NCBI GenBank assembly: GCA_016868835.1 | Contig: VGFR01000010.1 | Location: 1 to 33,672, forward strand | DNA: 33,672 bases | Direction of reading: 5' to 3' | Source: Bacteroidota bacterium | GTDB lineage: Bacteria > Bacteroidota > Bacteroidia > Flavobacteriales_D > Sanyastnellaceae | Shown: positions 10,109 through 33,672 of the stretch, in pieces | Layout of the letters: every line of letters starts with the position of its first letter | Numbering within the stretch: the first letter of the stretch is position 1 | Translations under genes and position numbers: made by a program | The notes under the pieces: generated by a model | Database searches by the model: none | Told to the model about the DNA's origin: nothing | What the model saw: only the letters and a program-made list of their open reading frames with translations

Positions 10109-11293
10109 TTACTTCTTGATTATGAGTTGAAAAGACAGTTTATAATCTTCCAAGTAAACAAAATACACTCCTTCGGGCAAGGAGGAAACATCTACCAGTT
10201 CCTGCGACCTTATTCTTCCCTTTTGCACCCGAATGCCATTGACATTGTACAATTGATATTTCCCAACATAGCCCGCAATGGAAAATACCTTATTCGTTGG
10301 ATTCGGAAACAACTGCAAGCTAGCGTTCTGGGTTTGAATAATTGCATTGGGAAAAGCAAAGAAAGAATTCAGACTGAACGTGTGTATTTTCTGATCAACA
10401 GAAACGATACTTTGCTGAAAATATTCATTTGTCGCTACCAACGTATAGGGATCAACAAACGCCACCCCTTCTATCTGATGAAAAGGAAGGTTCAAACCAA
10501 TCTTACGTTTGTTTCCGCTGAAGAAATTGTTGTTCGTGAAATCATACAATAAATAAATGAAAGGCTGAAGTAAGGGAGAGTATCCGCAAAGCACTATGCA
10601 TTGCAGTGAATCATTCCAAGTGGCACCGGTAATTAGACCTGAAACGGCATGGTCAAACATACGCTGCGCCTGGTATGTGCCTGGAATTTTAGGTAAGCGA
10701 TAAACCGTGGTTCCTTGAGAGGACCATTCCTTCGTAAATACATAAATACTATCTTCCTTCACTACCATGGCCTCACAATCATAATCTGTACTCTGAGAAG
10801 TGGGTGTAAAATCAACTTGATCTTCGTATTGAAACCAAATGGTATCGGCTAACAGAGGTGGGTTAAGGAAACTTGATTTTAGAATTCTGAGAATATGAAG
10901 ATCCGTTCTACTGCCTTGATTGTTTCCAAAGTCGCCAATATACATGTACAGACTGTCTTGAGTAATTTCTTCCCAATCTGTATTTGTAGTGTTTTCCACC
11001 GTAGGTGTGAATTCAACTTGAAACACATTTGAATTCAATCCATATAAGGTATTATCAGCATTGTCATTGTGTGTCCAAATGCGATTATTCCAAAAAATTA
11101 GACCTGAAGTTTCCGATAACGCAGCATCTAAAACAACTGACAGTTCCGGCGTTAAGGATGCGTTTGGATACAGACAACTGCCATCATTCTCTTGGGCAGT
11201 AATGGCGTAGTTGGTAGCTAACGGATCAGTACAGCCGAATTGGGCTGCGGGTGAAAGAGACAATAAAACAAAAAATAAAAGAAGCAAACGCAT
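10109..11293 (-). CDS. secreted protein with T9SS type A C-terminal sorting domain
   Basis: Signal peptide MRLLLLFFVLLSLSPAAQ; GCTDPLATNYAITAQENDGSCLYP motif; tail LQLFPNPTNKVFSIAGYVGKYQLYNVNGIRVQKG...LPEGVYFVYLEDYKLSFQLIIKK typical of T9SS type A sorting domains. Confidence 0.85.
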   Translation of the reverse strand: MRLLLLFFVLLSLSPAAQFGCTDPLATNYAITAQENDGSCLYPNASLTPELSVVLDAALSETSGLIFWNNRIWTHNDNADNTLYGLNSNVFQVEFTPTVENTTNTDWEEITQDSLYMYIGDFGNNQGSRTDLHILRILKSSFLNPPLLADTIWFQYEDQVDFTPTSQSTDYDCEAMVVKEDSIYVFTKEWSSQGTTVYRLPKIPGTYQAQRMFDHAVSGLITGATWNDSLQCIVLCGYSPLLQPFIYLLYDFTNNNFFSGNKRKIGLNLPFHQIEGVAFVDPYTLVATNEYFQQSIVSVDQKIHTFSLNSFFAFPNAIIQTQNASLQLFPNPTNKVFSIAGYVGKYQLYNVNGIRVQKGRIRSQELVDVSSLPEGVYFVYLEDYKLSFQLIIKK

Positions 11294-11335
11294 CAAACAA
11301 AGTTATATTAACTTTCAAGAAGAATTGGAATTCTT

Positions 11336-13240
11336 ATGAATCGCATAAAAACTTTAAACGAATATTCTGAAAGCTACGCTAAGAGTATTCAAAACAGAGA
11401 TGCATTTTGGAGCGAAATTGCCCATTCTTTTCAATGGAGAAAACCATGGTCTAGCGTGTGTGAAGGATCCATGGAGGCAGGTAGCTATTCTTGGTTCAAT
11501 GCAGGTGAATTGAACATTACTGAAAATTTGCTCGACAAGCATTTGACTGAAAAAGGCAATCAAGTGGCTCTTATTTGGGAACCGAATGAACCTTCGGTTG
11601 ATTTCAGAAAATTCACTTACAACGAACTTCACAACGAAGTTTGTCTGGTTGCCGAGATGCTACGCTCAATGGGAGTAAGGAAAGGAGATCGCGTTTGCAT
11701 TTACATGAGCATGGTACCTGAGTTGGTGTTCAGTGTGCTGGCGTGCGCGCGCATTGGTGCGGTGCACTCGGTAATCTTCGGCGGATTCAGTGCGAAGAGC
11801 ATAGCAGATCGCGTAGACGATGCTGAAGCAGACTTCGTGATAACCATGGACGGAGGGCTTCGTGGCAACAAAACCATTCCGCTGAAAGCAGTTGTAGATG
11901 AAGCATTGACTTCCACACGAAAAATAAAAAATGTGTTGGTGTACAACTACCTCAACCTTCCAACCGAAAAAAAAGAAATTGATGTGGATTGGAATGAATT
12001 GAAAGCTCGAGTTCTTTCCAACAACGATTATATCAAGCCCGGAGAGACAATGCAGTCTGAAGATCCATTGTTCATTTTATATACCAGCGGTTCAACAGGA
12101 AAACCGAAGGGTGTTGTGCACAGCACAGCCGGCTACATGGTATGGACGGCCTATACTTTTTTAAATGTGTTTCAGTACCAAGAAGGTGATATTCATTTCT
12201 GCACCGCAGATATTGGTTGGATAACAGGACACAGTTATTTAATTTACGGCCCCCTCTTGAATGGCTCTACCTCATTGATGTTTGAGGGCATACCTACCTT
12301 TCCGGATGCTGGAAGATTTTGGGACATTGTAGCGAAGCACAAAGTGAGCATCTTTTATACCGCACCTACAGCCATTCGCAGTTTAATGTCGGCCGGTGAT
12401 GAATTTCTAGAAGGAAAAAATCTGACTTCCTTGCGAATACTTGGAAGCGTAGGCGAGCCCATTAATGAAGAAGCGTGGAATTGGTACAACGAAAAAATTG
12501 GAAAAGGTCATTGTCCGATTGTCGATACCTTTTGGCAAACGGAAACGGGAGGAATCATGATTTCAAGTTTAGCGGGTGTTACTCCGTCGAAACCGGTGTT
12601 TGCCACTTTGCCTTTGCCAGGAGTTCAGCCCGTGCTATTGAATGAGCAAGGGCAAGAGATTCTAGAAAATGAAACTACTGGAAATTTATGTTTTGCTCAA
12701 CCCTGGCCTGGAATGATTCGAACCACCTATGGCGATCATGCACGTTGTGTAATGAATTATTTCAGTGCTTATCCGGGATATTACTTTACGGGTGATGGGG
12801 CATATAGAGATTCAAATGGTATGTACCGATTAACAGGAAGGGTTGATGACGTCTTGAATGTTAGCGGGCACCGCATAGGCACTGCGGAAGTAGAGAATGC
12901 CATTAATCATACCCCTGGTGTTATTGAAAGTGCGGTGGTGGGATATCCGCATGACATTAAAGGGCAAGGGATTTTTGCTTTTGTCATTTGTGATCCACAT
13001 CATCATTTGGAAGATCACGAACAAATTCAAGCAATAACGAAAACAGTGAGTGAGCAGATTGGTGCAATTGCGAAGCCCGATAAGATTGTTCTTGTTAGTG
13101 GTTTGCCGAAGACGCGGAGTGGAAAAATAATGCGTCGCATTTTAAGAAAGATTGCGGAAGGAGAATTCGATGCCATTGGCGATACCACTACCTTGTTAGA
13201 CCCGAGTGTGGTGCAGGAAATTATGGCCAAGGCGAAATAG
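11336..13240 (+). CDS. acs: acetate--CoA ligase (acetyl-CoA synthetase)
   Basis: YTSGSTGKPKGVVHSTAGYM, DTFWQTETGGIM, YFTGDGAYRDSNGMYRLTGRVDDVLNVSGHRIGTAEVE, KTRSGKIMRRILR are ANL-family and Acs-specific motifs. Confidence 0.96.
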   Translation: MNRIKTLNEYSESYAKSIQNRDAFWSEIAHSFQWRKPWSSVCEGSMEAGSYSWFNAGELNITENLLDKHLTEKGNQVALIWEPNEPSVDFRKFTYNELHNEVCLVAEMLRSMGVRKGDRVCIYMSMVPELVFSVLACARIGAVHSVIFGGFSAKSIADRVDDAEADFVITMDGGLRGNKTIPLKAVVDEALTSTRKIKNVLVYNYLNLPTEKKEIDVDWNELKARVLSNNDYIKPGETMQSEDPLFILYTSGSTGKPKGVVHSTAGYMVWTAYTFLNVFQYQEGDIHFCTADIGWITGHSYLIYGPLLNGSTSLMFEGIPTFPDAGRFWDIVAKHKVSIFYTAPTAIRSLMSAGDEFLEGKNLTSLRILGSVGEPINEEAWNWYNEKIGKGHCPIVDTFWQTETGGIMISSLAGVTPSKPVFATLPLPGVQPVLLNEQGQEILENETTGNLCFAQPWPGMIRTTYGDHARCVMNYFSAYPGYYFTGDGAYRDSNGMYRLTGRVDDVLNVSGHRIGTAEVENAINHTPGVIESAVVGYPHDIKGQGIFAFVICDPHHHLEDHEQIQAITKTVSEQIGAIAKPDKIVLVSGLPKTRSGKIMRRILRKIAEGEFDAIGDTTTLLDPSVVQEIMAKAK

Positions 13241-27215: not shown

Positions 27216-27244
27216 TTACTTTGCGGGTTGGAATTTTTTACATT

Positions 27245-28585
27245 ATGTGGGCATCGATTGCAGCCTTTATTTTACGAAATCGTGTATTACTCGGAGTAAT
27301 TACACTTCTGCTTACTGCATGGATGGGTTGGGAAGCTCGAAAAGTTCGCATGAGTTACAAATTCAGCGGGGTGCTTCCTCAAGATGATTCAACCTATGTT
27401 CAGTACCAAAGGTTCATTAAACAGTTCTCAGAAGATGGGAACGTGGTGGTGGTTGGATTAGACGACTCGGAAATTTGGGAACTTCAAAATTTCAAGGCTT
27501 GGAAAGATTTAGGTGATGAATTGAAGCAAATTACGGTTCCGGTAGATACCCTTATTAACGGCCAACTTCAATCCATACAAAAAAATGTTGTTGATTCTGT
27601 TTTTTCGGTTGCGCATTGCTACGAGATGTATGCTGACACCACAGAACAAAAATTCAAATTCAGAAAAATAGGTTCGGGCACACCTGGTTCACAGCTAGAA
27701 TTAGATAGCTTACATGAGCGAATTACCTCGCTTCCATTCTACGACGGGTTATTATACAAGTCGAAATCTGAAGCTACGCTCATGATGGTTTTTGTGAATG
27801 CGCAACTTTTTAATTCAGAAAACAGGGGGAATGCGGTTGAGCAAATTGTAGAGAAGACCAATTCATTTACCAATCACACTCGAATAGATACATACGTTAG
27901 CGGACTTCCCTTCATTCGCACGCAGATGACCACCAAAGTCAAAGCGGAGTTGAAATTCTTTACTCTTTTGTCTTTGTTGGTAAGTGCGGTCTTACTCTTT
28001 ATCTTTTTCCGAAGCATTCGTGCAGTATTGGTTTGCATGTTAATCATAGGAATTGGCGTAGTGGTATCTATGGGAACCATTGCCATGTTTGATTATCCAA
28101 TTACTATGCTCATGGGGTTAATTCCTCCATTAATGATTGTTATTGGGGTACCTAATTGCATTTACTTACTGACCAAATACCATCAAGAATTCATTCGTCA
28201 TGGCAATAAGATGCGTGCCATGTCTCGCGTTATTCAAAAAGTGGGTGAAGCGGCCTTCATGATTAACGCAACAACTGCAGTAGGATTTGCGACTTTCATT
28301 TTTGTAGAAAGTGATTTATTAAAACAATTCGGGGTCATTTCAGCATTGAATGCTTATGTTTTTCATTTCGTTGATAGCCTTCCCCATTTTGTTCTCCTTT
28401 ACAGCTGCGCCGAAGGCCCGACATTTAAAGCATTTAGACATGCGTTGGTTGTATGCCTTTTTAGAGAAACTTGTTCGTGCCATTACCAAAAACCGAAGTG
28501 TCATTTACATTATTACCACAGTGATCACTGTAGTTTCTATGTATGCCATGACCATGGTAAAAACAACTGGGAACATTGTAGATGA
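27245..28585 (+). CDS. MMPL/RND family transporter, N-terminal fragment (frameshifted)
   Basis: MWASIAAFILRNRVLLGVITLLLTAWMGWEARKVRMSYKFSGVLPQDDSTYVQYQRF...PPLMIVIGVPNCIYLLTKYHQEF is SSD/RND-like. Family-like sense is lost after GVISALN near 28352 (AYVFHFVDSLPHFVLLYSCAEGPTF). Confidence 0.8.
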   Translation: MWASIAAFILRNRVLLGVITLLLTAWMGWEARKVRMSYKFSGVLPQDDSTYVQYQRFIKQFSEDGNVVVVGLDDSEIWELQNFKAWKDLGDELKQITVPVDTLINGQLQSIQKNVVDSVFSVAHCYEMYADTTEQKFKFRKIGSGTPGSQLELDSLHERITSLPFYDGLLYKSKSEATLMMVFVNAQLFNSENRGNAVEQIVEKTNSFTNHTRIDTYVSGLPFIRTQMTTKVKAELKFFTLLSLLVSAVLLFIFFRSIRAVLVCMLIIGIGVVVSMGTIAMFDYPITMLMGLIPPLMIVIGVPNCIYLLTKYHQEFIRHGNKMRAMSRVIQKVGEAAFMINATTAVGFATFIFVESDLLKQFGVISALNAYVFHFVDSLPHFVLLYSCAEGPTFKAFRHALVVCLFRETCSCHYQKPKCHLHYYHSDHCSFYVCHDHGKNNWEHCR

Positions 28586-29756
28586 CTTACCCGATAGCGA
28601 TCGCGTAATTACAGATTTGCGATGGTTTGAAAAAAGGTTCGATGGCGTTATGCCCTTTGAAATCATGATTGAGGCGAAACATGGTAAGATTTCGCATCCG
28701 AAGACCATTGCTCGTATAGATAGTTTGCAAAGTGTGTTAGATACCTTACCGAGAGTGTCAACACGGTTATCGCGTTCACTATCCATTGCAGATGCAATGA
28801 AATTTGGAAGACAAGCTTATTTTGAAGCGAAGCTAGGCGGAGACGCTTCAGATTACAAGCTCATTCGAGGGGGTGAACGCATGGAGATTGGTCCTTATTT
28901 CGAATCTTCCGACAGCAGTGCAAAAGGGAATGGAAATTCAAAATACTTGAATTCATTTATTGATGATTCATTGAAAAAAACCCGAATTACAGCGCAAGTT
29001 GCGGATATTGGTACATTGGCTATGGATAGTTTATTGAGTGATTTGCAACCCCACGTGAATCGCTTGTTTCCCGATAGTCTTTACCGCGTTACCATGACTG
29101 GAACGAGCATTGTATTTTTGAAGGGGACCACTTATTTGGTAGACAATTTATTTAGTAGTTTGTTGTTCGCAATTGGCGTAATTTGTTTGTTGATGGCGAT
29201 CATGTTCCGTAGCATTCGTATGGTTATTATATCACTTGTTCCGAATGTTATTCCTCAACTGATTACGGCCGGATTTATGGGTTTATTCAACATACCCTTG
29301 AAACCATCAACCATACTTGTATTCAGCATTGCATTTGGGATTACGGTAGACAATACCATTCACTTTTTAGCGAAATATAGGCAAGAATTGCGTGGTCAGG
29401 GTTGGAACATTAAACAAGCGGTGTTATTGGCAGTGAAAGATACAGGGGCGAGTATATTGTTTACGAGCATTGTCTTATTCTTCGGCTTCGGTATGTTTGT
29501 ATTCTCTGAGTTTGAGGGAACGCGTGCGTTGGGAATATTAACTTCGCTGACATTATTCACGGCCATGCTTACGAACTTGGTTGTACTGCCGGCCATGTTA
29601 TTGAGTTTGGATCATTACGTGAGCACGAAAGCATTTGCAGAGCCCTTTGTTCAGGTCATTCATGAAGAGGATGATTTGTCATACGAAGACTGGCAAATGA
29701 AGCGAATAGACCCAACAATGACAGCTGGGTTTCACGAAGATGAGCACGAAGATTAA
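28350..29756 (+). CDS. MMPL/RND family transporter, C-terminal fragment (frameshifted)
   Basis: MFFISLIAFPILFSFTAAPKARHLKHLD...TGNIVDDLPDSDRVITDLRWFEKRFDGVMPFEIMIEAKHG...VFSIAFGITVDNTIHFLAKYRQEL. Direct continuation of the previous ORF in another frame. Confidence 0.8.
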   Translation: MLMFFISLIAFPILFSFTAAPKARHLKHLDMRWLYAFLEKLVRAITKNRSVIYIITTVITVVSMYAMTMVKTTGNIVDDLPDSDRVITDLRWFEKRFDGVMPFEIMIEAKHGKISHPKTIARIDSLQSVLDTLPRVSTRLSRSLSIADAMKFGRQAYFEAKLGGDASDYKLIRGGERMEIGPYFESSDSSAKGNGNSKYLNSFIDDSLKKTRITAQVADIGTLAMDSLLSDLQPHVNRLFPDSLYRVTMTGTSIVFLKGTTYLVDNLFSSLLFAIGVICLLMAIMFRSIRMVIISLVPNVIPQLITAGFMGLFNIPLKPSTILVFSIAFGITVDNTIHFLAKYRQELRGQGWNIKQAVLLAVKDTGASILFTSIVLFFGFGMFVFSEFEGTRALGILTSLTLFTAMLTNLVVLPAMLLSLDHYVSTKAFAEPFVQVIHEEDDLSYEDWQMKRIDPTMTAGFHEDEHED

Positions 29757-30331
29757 GCTTCTTGTTTTACCTCGTTGATTGATTTCTCAAGTTCATTGAG
29801 TTCAGCTACAACCTCATTTGTTGCAACTTCATCATATCCTCTCAGTCTTTCAATAATGAGACGAATGCGAGACACCCCTGCTTGAAGTTTTCCTTTGGTT
29901 TTTTGCCATGAACTTGCACCACCATTTTGAGTTAGCCCGCGTGTATTGAGTTCGTACCTATCAATGGCGTTGAGAATACAAACGCGCAGGTCGTTTTCGT
30001 TCCAAGGTTTTGCAACATAACGGTACACTTGTCCTCTATTAATAGCATCAATGACTGCTTCAATATCTGCATAACCTGTAACTAATATTCGCACGGCTTG
30101 TGGAAAATCTGCCAGGGTGAGTTCGAAAAATTCCACTCCACTTAGCTCTGGCATTTTTTGATCGCTCAGAATTACTGGAACCTCGTTGCTATTGAGATAT
30201 GCTACGGCTTCTTGGGGCGACGTTGTTGTGAACACATCGAATTCTCTGCGGAACAGAGCTTTGAATGCAATTAGATTATGTTCTTCGTCATCAAGATATA
30301 AGATTTTTATTTTGTCTGAAAGGTTATCCAT
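29753..30331 (-). CDS. response regulator receiver protein without recognised output domain
   Basis: KILYLDDEEHNLIAFKALFRREFDVFTTTSPQEAVAYLNSNEVPVILSDQKMPELSGVEFFELTLADFPQAVRILVTGYADIEAVIDAINRGQVYRYVAKPW is an RpfG-type receiver. The C-terminus is short and helical, with no HTH, HD-GYP or GGDEF. Confidence 0.92.
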   Translation of the reverse strand: MDNLSDKIKILYLDDEEHNLIAFKALFRREFDVFTTTSPQEAVAYLNSNEVPVILSDQKMPELSGVEFFELTLADFPQAVRILVTGYADIEAVIDAINRGQVYRYVAKPWNENDLRVCILNAIDRYELNTRGLTQNGGASSWQKTKGKLQAGVSRIRLIIERLRGYDEVATNEVVAELNELEKSINEVKQEA

Positions 30332-32402
30332 GCAGTTGATTTGTTATTGGCAAATGTATAGTAAAGCGGGTACCACCTTCGGGTACATTTTGGAAATCGA
30401 TGATGCCGTTGTGTTCGGCAACAATACCGTGAACAATGCTTAAGCCGAGGCCAGTACCTTCACCAACGTCTTTGGTGGTAAAGAAGGGCTCGAAAATTTT
30501 GTCGTGAATTTGATCTGGAATACCGACCCCATTATCGGAAATATGAATGAGAATATATTCATTTCGTTGAACAGATTCAATGGTAATGATTCGGTCTTTT
30601 GGCTGTCTATTTGGAAGTTTTGTTGCCTGAACTGCGTTGGTAATTAAGTTCATGAAAACTTGGCTGAGTTTACCCGGATAGCAGTCAATTTTGGGAAGAT
30701 CTTTTGCTAAGTGTATGTTGAGCGTTACTTCCGCTTTTGTCATATTCTTCATGACTACAAGAGTTGAAGAAAGGCATTCATTGATATCTGCAGAGACGCG
30801 TTCACTTTTATCCATTCGCGAGAAGATTCTCAATCCTTTCACAATTTCAGCAGTTCTTTTAGAGCCTTCTTCGATGCCGTTTAGGAGTTGCGATATTTCT
30901 TCTTTCAGGAAGTCGATTTCAAGATTTTTATATTGAGCTTTGAGATTATTTAATTTGAGTTGTAGATCGCTATCATTTTCGAGATTGGCGTATTGTTCAA
31001 GGAGAGACAGAATATCTTGAACATCGCGTTTTAAAGGGCCAACATTAGATTGAACGAAGTTGATTGGATTGTTGATTTCATGGGCTATACCAGCGGTCAT
31101 TTGGCCCAAGGATGCTAGTTTTTCCGATTCAACGAGTTGCTGTTGGGTGGTTTTCAGATCGGCCAGCGCTTGATTAAGTTCTGAATTTCTATTTTCTAGA
31201 TCAAGCGTACGTTCATGCACTTTATTTTCGAGGTAGGTGTTTTGTTCTTTCACGAGCCTCTCATTTTCTTGCATGGTTGTAAAAGCGAGTTGTTGTGAAA
31301 TTTCTTTTTCTTGTTTGAGTACATTAATCCGATCTGCCAATGCGAAGGAAAGGAGAAGAATTTCAATAACAGAACCAACGGGCAATGCGAAGTTTGTGAA
31401 CGTATTGAATGGCAGTAGTCCGAAATTTCGCAAAGCATAGACCATTAAACCCACTATAAATAAACACCAAGACAGAAGAAAAAATCTCGCAGGTCTAAAT
31501 CCTGATCTAATAGCCTTCATGGATGCAAAGATCAAGATCAATGCAGAGGCAGCGCCAAGATTAAGAATTAGCTGTACATAAAAATGCTTGCCAAAAAAGG
31601 AACAAACAATGGCAAATAAATACAAGCTTAAAAAAACATTTAACACTTTATGAATTATAGGCACAAATTCTTTTGTTCTGATAAAGTTTTGTGTGAATAA
31701 GATTGTTGCCACACCACTTAGAGCTGGAATTATAGATATTAGAATTGATTTGATTTCAATTTCGGGTGGAAACCAAGATTGTATAAAACCATAAAGAACA
31801 AATTGAGTAATGCCTACCGTAGAAATATAAAAAATATAGTAGAGGTAAACATTATCTCTTACAGTAAAATAAATAATTACGTTGTATATGAACATTGCCA
31901 ATAATATTCCCAAGTAAATCAAGAATATTGAATTTTCAGACTCCTCTGTCTTCTGAAGTGTACTCAAATCAGAAAAGATTATTGGAACGAGAAGCTGATC
32001 ATAACTACTCACAACAAGTAGCAACTCCAATTTGTCGGTCCCATCATTTACGAGTGGAAATGAAATACGTCCCTCATTACTGACGAGTTCACCACCTGTA
32101 TGAGAATATATTGAATCATTTGTTACCTGAAAAAACTCAATGCTATCAAGTATTGGATTATCTATTAAAAGAATCTTATCACCACTCCAAAAATCTTTTG
32201 AAACTATTTTTCTAATCCGTATTGTATACTTATCCTCAGAAAGTCCAAAATTCAAATTCTCACCTTGATTTTGTATCCATCCTAATTTTTCTGATGACCG
32301 AATCTCTGATTTTGAAATCCTCCCTGAAATAAATTCAACTTGCCCAAAAATATTTAGGCAACTGAAAACAGAGATCACGAATAATATACTGACTCTATTC
32401 AT
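30324..32402 (-). CDS. sensor histidine kinase with 7TMR-DISM-type sensor module
   Basis: Signal peptide, N-terminal extracellular domain, about 7 TM segments (IFLIYLGILLAMFIYNVIIYFTVRDNVYLYYIFYI...), coiled coil, H-box LASLGQMTAGIAHEINNPINFVQSN, N/G boxes LITNAVQATKLPNRQ, ISDNGVGIPDQIHDKIFEPFFTTKDVGEGTGLGLSIVHGIV. Confidence 0.92.
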   Translation of the reverse strand: MNRVSILFVISVFSCLNIFGQVEFISGRISKSEIRSSEKLGWIQNQGENLNFGLSEDKYTIRIRKIVSKDFWSGDKILLIDNPILDSIEFFQVTNDSIYSHTGGELVSNEGRISFPLVNDGTDKLELLLVVSSYDQLLVPIIFSDLSTLQKTEESENSIFLIYLGILLAMFIYNVIIYFTVRDNVYLYYIFYISTVGITQFVLYGFIQSWFPPEIEIKSILISIIPALSGVATILFTQNFIRTKEFVPIIHKVLNVFLSLYLFAIVCSFFGKHFYVQLILNLGAASALILIFASMKAIRSGFRPARFFLLSWCLFIVGLMVYALRNFGLLPFNTFTNFALPVGSVIEILLLSFALADRINVLKQEKEISQQLAFTTMQENERLVKEQNTYLENKVHERTLDLENRNSELNQALADLKTTQQQLVESEKLASLGQMTAGIAHEINNPINFVQSNVGPLKRDVQDILSLLEQYANLENDSDLQLKLNNLKAQYKNLEIDFLKEEISQLLNGIEEGSKRTAEIVKGLRIFSRMDKSERVSADINECLSSTLVVMKNMTKAEVTLNIHLAKDLPKIDCYPGKLSQVFMNLITNAVQATKLPNRQPKDRIITIESVQRNEYILIHISDNGVGIPDQIHDKIFEPFFTTKDVGEGTGLGLSIVHGIVAEHNGIIDFQNVPEGGTRFTIHLPITNQLHG

Positions 32403-33112
32403 ATTGAAAGCGCATATTCAATTTTAGTAATTCCATTTCCTATTGATTCTTCGCACAAAATCAATGGATTTTGACGTATCTCAATGATTTTTTTTCTTTC
32501 ATTCTCATCTGAATCGAACATGTGATTAACATCTCTCTGCAGAGTAATATGTGCAAATTGATTCGCACCGTCGTAATAGATTCTTCCACCGTCTGCCAAA
32601 GATTCAACGAGTCGAAAACCATATTTGGAAGAAATACGATATGTGTAGGCTGAGCAAAGGGCTATAACTGATTGGAAATTCAATATGCCCGCTAAGGCTA
32701 AAGCGGCTCGAATACTATAAACACTACCTATACCCAATCCAGCAACAGCAACAGAGTTCCAAAGACCGCATAACTCCACAATTGGCGGGTTAAATACACT
32801 CAAATATTCGTTTAAGTTTGGTATGTCATCACCGACTGCACTTTGAATAGGCAATTGTATTTTATCACCTATTTTCTGTAATCTTGACCCTCCATATACC
32901 TCGCCCTCTGGCGATTCAATTACAATAACATAGGTGTCAGGATTAAACATCCACTCTTCTGTTGCACTCGATAATTTAAATCCAAAAGCTTCTAGAACAC
33001 CTAAATGACCCACCCTAAACTGCATACAACTTTCAAAATCATCAACAGCTCTAAATGCACGAATTCTGAGTTCGGGTATACTACTTTCTGATGCAGAAAT
33101 ACTAAAACTCAT
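32399..33112 (-). CDS. GNAT-fold acyltransferase, autoinducer-synthase/FeeM-like
   Basis: RAFRAVDDFESCMQFRVGHLGVLEAFGF, YVIVIESPEGEVYGGSRLQ and VELCGLWNSVAVAGLGIGSVYSIRAALALA...YTYRISSKYGFRLV resemble the LuxI/FeeM-type N-acyltransferase layout (R motif, vGxxRL strand, E-L-x-x-x block, C-terminal Gf). Family assigned by eye. Confidence 0.6.
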   Translation of the reverse strand: MSFSISASESSIPELRIRAFRAVDDFESCMQFRVGHLGVLEAFGFKLSSATEEWMFNPDTYVIVIESPEGEVYGGSRLQKIGDKIQLPIQSAVGDDIPNLNEYLSVFNPPIVELCGLWNSVAVAGLGIGSVYSIRAALALAGILNFQSVIALCSAYTYRISSKYGFRLVESLADGGRIYYDGANQFAHITLQRDVNHMFDSDENERKKIIEIRQNPLILCEESIGNGITKIEYALSI

Positions 33113-33672
33113 TAGCTAAACCTTTCTGATATATCCAAATAATACCGGCCACTATTGATATGCTCTCCTAGTAAGAGTTTTCTTGACAATATAGTAGCAG
33201 TTGCCCCCCCAAACATGACATCACCACCCAATTGAGGCCATGTATCCAATGTCCTCCCTATCTCTTTGAAAGACTCTACTCCTCTTTTTGACGCACTATT
33301 CAGATCTACAAATCTCATTAATACTTCTTTGTTTGTTGATCGCAATAACAATTCTATTTCTGAATCCTTTATTAATCCATGGAAAATTTCTTCGACGAAC
33401 CTATAATCTTCGACATCCAATAGTCCCCGGTCACTTGTCTCCATCAATAATGGAATTCTTTTTTTTCGTGCCTCAATTCTTAACAATAGTTTAACTATAC
33501 CAGAATCACATTCATCTACTACAAGGTCAATTCCATTGCTATCATTAAAAAATGATTGAATATTTGAAGAATCAATACCCACATCATAGGTTTTAACAAT
33601 AATAAACGGGTCTATTTCCAATATCCAACGATAAGCAAGCTGCACTTTTGAGACACCAACGTCTTTTATTCC
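33112..33672 (-). CDS. E1-like/ThiF-family protein, Rv1355c-type C-terminal portion (N-terminus beyond the window)
   Basis: The open frame runs past the track's GTG start to the window edge: GIKDVGVSKVQLAYRWILEIDPFIIVKTYDVGIDSSNIQSFFNDSNGIDLVVDECDSGIVKLLLRIEARKKRIPLLMETSDRG matches the E1/ThiF post-nucleotide-binding region (K(V)xxAxxxxxxIDPxIxVxxYxxGI...DLVVDExD...ARxxxIPLL). The tail TWPQLGGDVMFGGATATILSRKLLLGE is Rv1355c-family-like. Confidence 0.65.
   Translation of the reverse strand, partial: GIKDVGVSKVQLAYRWILEIDPFIIVKTYDVGIDSSNIQSFFNDSNGIDLVVDECDSGIVKLLLRIEARKKRIPLLMETSDRGLLDVEDYRFVEEIFHGLIKDSEIELLLRSTNKEVLMRFVDLNSASKRGVESFKEIGRTLDTWPQLGGDVMFGGATATILSRKLLLGEHINSGRYYLDISERFS

Follow-up and report, generated by a model that had tools for sequence, protein, structure and literature searches.

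The window analysed here is the whole of contig VGFR01000010.1 (33,672 nucleotides), one of 216 contigs in the draft genome of a Bacteroidota bacterium of the family Sanyastnellaceae (GCA_016868835.1). At positions 29753-33672 it carries four minus-strand genes, encoding a ThiF-family protein, a GNAT-type acyltransferase, a 7TMR-DISM sensor histidine kinase and a receiver protein. We consider it probable that this unit is a polymorphic, small-molecule system of the quorum-sensing type, in which a FeeM-type N-acyl amino-acid signal is read by a dedicated seven-transmembrane (7TM) kinase. A sequence-only reading of this stretch had proposed an operon whose products both synthesise an adenylated or acylated metabolite and detect it or its precursor. 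The joint exchange of the synthase with the sensing half of the kinase among related genomes, and receptor clades which follow the tailoring enzyme, argue for that proposal. The features under discussion are as follows, with TM denoting a transmembrane helix.

33112 to 33672, minus strand: ThiF-family cyclase (Rv1355c/TrzS family), C-terminal 186 codons, 5' end cut (NF005901, Pfam ThiF)
32399 to 33112, minus strand: FeeM/LuxI-fold acyltransferase, predicted signal synthase, 237 aa (AlphaFold, Foldseek, profile match)
30324 to 32402, minus strand: 7TMR-DISM sensor histidine kinase, predicted receptor, 692 aa (Pfam domains, intact motifs)
31425 to 32402, minus strand: swappable sensing half of the kinase, comprising signal peptide, ectodomain and TM1-TM6 (AlphaFold, Foldseek, identity change point)
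30324 to 31355, minus strand: conserved half of the kinase, comprising TM7/signalling helix, HisKA and HATPase (identity comparisons)
29753 to 30331, minus strand: receiver-only response regulator, 192 aa (Pfam Response_reg, phospho-acceptor motifs)

Exchange of the synthase and sensing half

In two genomes of the window genus, G001 and G005, the conserved kinase half matches at 96% identity, the receiver at 99% and the MMPL-family transporter downstream at 97%. Between the same genomes identity is 28% in the ectodomain, 44% in the 7TM region, 26% in the GNAT, 40% in the ThiF protein and 41% in an additional gene, here called X. In nucleotide sequence the flanks match at 95% and 90%, and blastn gives no similarity for the 3.74 kb between them, a segment bounded by the 3' end of X and by about codon 301 of the kinase. 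In another genus, G060 and G053 share flanks of 95% identity around an exchanged segment of 3.99 kb; between Algoriphagus limi and G208, the exchange is confined to the stretch from about codon 51 of the GNAT to about codon 358 of the kinase. The window allele is of the type found in G001, G003, G004 and G007 (GNAT identity 63-65%).

Among 101 close pairs drawn from five lineages, kinase identity always changed at residues 327-350, in the stretch separating TM6 from TM7, from 27% on the N-terminal side to 83% on the C-terminal side. In the cassette exchanges that were examined, identity in the conserved half stayed at 78-100%. One genome per species was compared, the closest pairs having flanks 95% identical. 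Apart from the cassette kinase, the same genome pairs have a single 7TMR-DISM kinase, which served as a control and displayed no breakpoint, identity being 80-96% throughout in one pair and varying gradually from 42 to 88% in the other. Since this second DISM locus is, in the 42-88% pair, more diverged than the flanks of the cassette, those flanks may be products of recent exchange too.

Gene X (~375 aa) adjoins the ThiF gene divergently in the window genus and a few others (locus L034, positions 10408-11586; equivalents in L032, L033, L035, L037, L038, L048, L050, L052 and L053). It matches no Pfam or NCBIfam family and is exchanged along with the synthase/sensor cassette, of which it is possibly a further specificity partner.

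Co-inheritance and tailoring enzymes

The trees of the different segments were compared for 20 loci of the Cyclobacteriaceae type. In approximately unbiased (AU) tests the GNAT data and the sensor-plus-7TM data accept each other's tree (p=0.20 and 0.10), and both reject the kinase tree (log-likelihood differences of 1675 and 1482) and the ThiF tree; the kinase data reject the GNAT tree as well as the sensor-plus-7TM tree. A partial Mantel test relating GNAT to 7TM distances, given kinase distance, returned r=0.87 (reached in 0 of 1000 permutations), or 0.78 when ThiF was also controlled for.

The enzyme which would finish the product varies between loci, and this variation can be set against each tree. 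Of 106 relatives surveyed, 53 have a nitroreductase domain fused to ThiF. On quick FastTree estimates, which may resolve the more conserved kinase region less well (a weakness from which the AU tests are free), the nitroreductase state changes six times on the 7TM tree, six on the ThiF tree, 12 on the GNAT tree, 13 on the ectodomain tree and 19 on the kinase tree, compared with about 35.6 for shuffled labels. Because the GNAT gene sits between ThiF and the kinase in most loci, proximity alone predicts that the GNAT tree should track the oxidase better than the 7TM tree; the opposite was observed.

In Chitinophagaceae-type loci the tailoring slot holds ThiF with oxidase, ThiF, an ICMT-type carboxyl methyltransferase, a class I methyltransferase, an FAD-binding oxidase, or nothing. 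Over all the loci surveyed, the ICMT-type enzyme replaces ThiF between GNAT and kinase in L243, L244, L288, L291, L296 and L306, and the slot is taken by a class I S-adenosylmethionine-dependent methyltransferase in L275 and L276 and by an FAD-binding oxidase in L304. On trees of the same quick kind for 45 Chitinophagaceae-type loci, tailoring type changes nine times on the 7TM tree, ten on the ectodomain tree, 13 on the GNAT tree and 14 on the kinase tree, relative to about 24 for shuffled labels. In this count one locus (L282), in which two tandem GNAT genes precede the kinase, was scored as having no tailoring enzyme. The 7TM clades of the receptor thus follow the tailoring enzyme.

Linkage across the Bacteroidota

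An even sample of the phylum (396 genomes) contained the GNAT in 13 genomes, with the kinase adjoining in 13/13 and an ICMT-type methyltransferase in ThiF's place in two of the 13 loci. An even sample of the Chitinophagaceae-type family gave an adjoining kinase in all 34 loci fetched. Among 100 relatives, 53 loci were left whole by the contig ends, and the kinase adjoins in 52 of them. The co-occurrence survey called for by the sequence-only reading therefore leaves little room for accident: the juxtaposition is not a matter of chance. Overall, about 160 acyltransferase loci have the kinase adjoining (a rounded figure, since the locus sets overlap by a few loci), and three uncut loci are without it (L047, L147 and L155). 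Among the 100 relatives, L047 is the sole uncut locus with ThiF and GNAT and no kinase in the fetched stretch. In L147, from a Saprospiraceae metagenome-assembled genome, ThiF and GNAT form one open reading frame (ORF) of 632 aa.

A ThiF-profile scan of the genome collection returned at least 550 relatives. Eighty loci drawn from these were mostly from Bacteroidota, including Algoriphagus, Pedobacter, Mucilaginibacter, Chitinophaga and Cryomorpha, and 66 of the 80 held ThiF, GNAT, full kinase and receiver together. In relatives of the same family and order the layout is ThiF (with or without oxidase), GNAT, kinase, a receiver (usually a hybrid of ~362 aa), a ~133-aa receiver and a divergent receiver gene; Sphingobacteriales-type genomes have the reversed order GNAT-ThiF-kinase. 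The PorX-type, TsaE, alanine dehydrogenase and pyrophosphatase genes flanking the Algoriphagus locus were considered and fall outside the conserved unit.

Six actinomycete plasmid loci with a Rv1355c-family ThiF had no adjoining kinase or receiver of these families. The pairing in the Streptomyces plasmid locus L219 was rejected as an instance of the same module, the GNAT beside its ThiF having no detectable similarity to the window GNAT family. On the Streptomyces plasmid locus L222, the Rv1355c-family ThiF adjoins a gene for beta-ketoacyl-ACP synthase 3, and neither locus has a kinase.

The components in the window

Every junction of the unit overlaps, and ORF and junction checks bore out the four genes and their coordinates as first read. 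The ThiF stop and GNAT start share TAATG (33110-33114), the GNAT stop and kinase start share ATGA (32399-32402), and the first eight nucleotides of the receiver gene contain the kinase stop (ATGGATAA, 30324-30331). From these overlaps we infer translational coupling and stoichiometric co-expression.

The acyltransferase has no family in Pfam or NCBIfam, the Pfam autoinducer-synthase family included, and a sequence search of the PDB gave nothing significant, so that its identity was resolved by fold comparison alone. Its AlphaFold model (pLDDT 91) has FeeM (2g0b) as top Foldseek match (E=1.9e-7), with MesI, BjaI, RpaI, EsaI and LasI also matched. FeeM and CoA-dependent acyl-homoserine-lactone synthases are thus its top structural matches, in agreement with the FeeM/LuxI-type GNAT that the sequence-only reading had put forward for structure prediction. 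The closest structures of TyzA of Mycobacterium tuberculosis are likewise reported to be FeeM and BjaI (PMC10404671). Furthermore, a profile of the GNAT family picks out the protein adjoining the Rhodococcus Rv1355c gene, at the TrzA position, with E=1.2e-5 in a small set and 2e-4 by hhalign.

The ThiF fragment matches Pfam ThiF and, at positions 153-338 of 722, the 'Rv1355c family' NF005901 (E=1.7e-55, a score under the full-length cut-off). TrzS of Mycobacterium and Rhodococcus, a member of this family, combines an ATP-dependent N-acyl-amino-acid cyclase with a fused flavin oxidase (PMC12856293). The fragment has an adenylation-type DECD motif, a candidate counterpart of TrzS Asp217 within the C-terminal half available. 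Zinc-binding cysteine pairs of sulfur-carrier E1 enzymes were looked for, and this half, the N-terminal half being missing, has one cysteine and no CxxC. On the pathway side, there are PDB matches to TcdA/MoeB and to the Acg nitroreductase. The early assignment to E1/ThiF enzymes holds for the fold, and the family is probably that of oxazolone-type N-acyl-amino-acid cyclases rather than of sulfur-carrier E1 enzymes.

As the window is the complete contig, the ThiF gene is cut at the assembly end. It had been suggested that the full gene be recovered beyond this edge; neither its N-terminal half nor gene X was found in the rest of the genome, and we therefore assume an assembly gap. Full-length orthologues in sister genomes are ~342 aa. 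The ThiF stop codon is intact, so no nitroreductase domain is fused at the C-terminus, and searches of this genome and of eight congeners yielded no stand-alone oxidase of the nitroreductase type. A nitroreductase had been anticipated; it is present in about half of loci, fused to ThiF, and absent from the window genus. The carrier protein or dedicated exporter also anticipated was not seen in the unit. The window genome would hold at most an oxidase-less variant of Oxz/Tyz/Trz oxazolone biosynthesis.

The kinase contains the Pfam domains 7TMR-DISMED2, 7TMR-DISM_7TM, HisKA and HATPase_c, with an intact H-box (AHEINNP at 440) and intact ATP-lid motifs. Its AlphaFold model (pLDDT 88) has seven helices and places a RetS-like beta-sandwich ectodomain at residues 24-145, followed by TM1-TM6 up to residue 326; Foldseek matches the ectodomain to the RetS sensor domain (2xbz/3jyb, E about 2e-5). 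The receiver protein matches Response_reg (E=3.4e-15) and retains the motifs LDDEE, LSDQKMP, LVTGY and AKPW, with the phospho-acceptor site intact. Both proteins are what they were first taken for. In other genera two proteins are encoded at the receiver position, one a receiver-kinase hybrid of ~362 aa and the other a further receiver of ~133 aa. The divergent receivers of ~155 aa beside ThiF (L042, L043, L054 and many others) end in a LRQxLLS-like motif. No DNA-binding domain was found in any relay protein examined, and no LuxR-type gene was recognised in the conserved unit.

The MMPL-family transporter next to the unit (27221-29756, plus strand) is read as two overlapping ORFs of 454 and 468 aa. 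Sister genomes have a single intact gene of 844-857 aa at this position, and the split reflects either a frameshift or an assembly error.

Proposed mechanism

In the system we envisage, the FeeM/LuxI-fold enzyme would join an acyl group to an amino acid, as its fold suggests, and the ThiF cyclase, judging by homology, would activate the carboxylate with ATP and close an oxazolone-type ring. Since the window genus has no detectable nitroreductase oxidase, its product should be the saturated form; other lineages would employ a fused oxidase, an enzyme of the carboxyl-methyltransferase type, or no cap. Co-inheritance points to the ectodomain and TM1-6 of the neighbouring kinase as the part which would recognise the molecule. 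From its domains, the kinase would then signal through TM7 and HisKA to the adjacent receiver, presumably by phosphorylation, a step that relatives may extend into a multi-receiver relay. The synthase moves with the sensing half as one cassette, which would give rise to separate pherotypes, each with its own signal and receptor, while the kinase/regulator chassis stays constant.

With somewhat less assurance, we lean towards a broader proposal. This would be a hitherto unrecognised, phylum-wide class of quorum-sensing systems in Bacteroidota, with FeeM-type N-acyl amino-acid signals, interchangeable tailoring (ThiF, ThiF-oxidase, ICMT/class I methyltransferase, FAD oxidase or none), chemotype-matched 7TM clades and, in the manner of agr, maker-plus-sensor cassettes on a constant kinase chassis.

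Alternative explanations

Several observations weigh against a signalling role. Over all 106 loci the partial Mantel correlation of GNAT with 7TM is weak (r=0.05), probably through saturation; we regard this test as uninformative and therefore relied on close relatives and trees. Nothing else in the unit evolves as fast as the RetS-like ectodomain (31968-32339), which diverges even where the synthases are of one type (25-31% identity at a GNAT identity of about 62%) and may answer other pressures. The receiver protein lacks an output domain. The molecules can have other uses, because outside the Bacteroidota the enzyme family occurs without the kinase. Co-inheritance of adjoining segments could in part be physical hitch-hiking, the case rests on sequence and predicted structure, and ThiF is incomplete in this genome.

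The most serious competing explanation, though an unlikely one, is that the product serves as a membrane lipid, an antioxidant or an antibiotic, roles suggested for other oxazolones and for N-acyl tyrosines, and that the kinase only senses stress or product load to govern its own biosynthesis, with no communication between cells. Elsewhere, oxazolones have no proven signalling role and mostly stay in the cell pellet, and N-acyl tyrosines have antimicrobial activity (PMC12856293). Repeated swaps of maker and sensing half into highly divergent types, with the kinase and flanks conserved, are however what specific signal/receptor pairs should show, and not what housekeeping sensing of a product should show. 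The antimicrobial activity would equally suit self-recognition in antagonism, whereby the product inhibits neighbours with another cassette and the kinase signals self-immunity, as in bacteriocin-like types. Such antagonism would give the same pattern of co-inheritance, but no gene for immunity or transport was recognised as a constant companion of the cassette, and the receptor is a kinase feeding receivers; we judge it improbable.

Least credible, in our estimation, is that the ectodomain diversifies for an unrelated reason such as phage adsorption, dragging GNAT and ThiF along by recombination. The rapid evolution of the ectodomain would be expected on this account. Nevertheless, the 7TM region is exchanged as well, its tree tracks the nitroreductase/ThiF/ICMT state better than does that of the physically closer GNAT, and the GNAT adjoins this kinase almost everywhere. 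A signal read by its neighbouring kinase thus remains the explanation we prefer.

Comparison with known systems

The enzyme module is already known from oxzAB, tyzACB and trzAS (Pseudoalteromonas, Mycobacterium, Rhodococcus), with which the unit shares a FeeM-like N-acyltransferase and a Rv1355c-family ThiF, an Acg-like nitroreductase being fused in many relatives. The window genus differs in having no oxidase, Bacteroidota loci can exchange ThiF for ICMT or other enzymes, and a kinase adjoins the unit here, unlike in the six actinomycete loci examined. Two papers on the M. tuberculosis pathway mention neither 'histidine kinase' nor 'two-component'. The receptor linkage, the phylum-wide spread and the pherotype-like swapping were not found in the literature searched, which comprised no subscription papers and in which absence is no proof.

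To our knowledge, Bacteroidota are without typical LuxI/LuxR systems, and we are aware of no 7TMR-DISM kinase of this type whose endogenous ligand is established. What oxazolones do physiologically has been called a major unresolved question, with the authors noting their similarity to signals (PMC12856293). If the kinase reads the molecule made by its neighbours, then the role of oxazolones, signalling in Bacteroidota and the DISM ligand all become directly testable, for example in the culturable genera Algoriphagus, Pedobacter, Mucilaginibacter and Chitinophaga, where exchangeable cassettes offer ready-made specificity controls.

As in two-component quorum sensing, a synthase is genetically paired with its own sensor kinase. 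The acyl synthase is of the GNAT type and has the same fold as LuxI, but here the predicted receptor is a kinase and no LuxR was recognised. CqsA/CqsS and PhcB/PhcS are small-molecule quorum-sensing systems acting through a membrane kinase, and PhcB makes a methyl ester. They resemble the unit in linking a dedicated synthase gene to a multi-TM sensor kinase, and the PhcB methyl ester is comparable to the ICMT variants; their synthases and sensors are unrelated to those described here, and the chemistry and phylum are different.

The agr systems of Gram-positive bacteria follow the same pherotype pattern as comQXPA. In the latter, the signal-making genes and the sensing half of the kinase vary together, with the kinase half and regulator conserved (PMC4408185). 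Those signals are peptides, whereas the Bacteroidota unit would pair a FeeM/ThiF-type small molecule with a 7TMR-DISM receptor. Nonetheless, synthase and sensing half change together in the same manner while the kinase half is conserved, and a maker and sensor swapped together are what private bacterial communication with changing dialects would be expected to look like.

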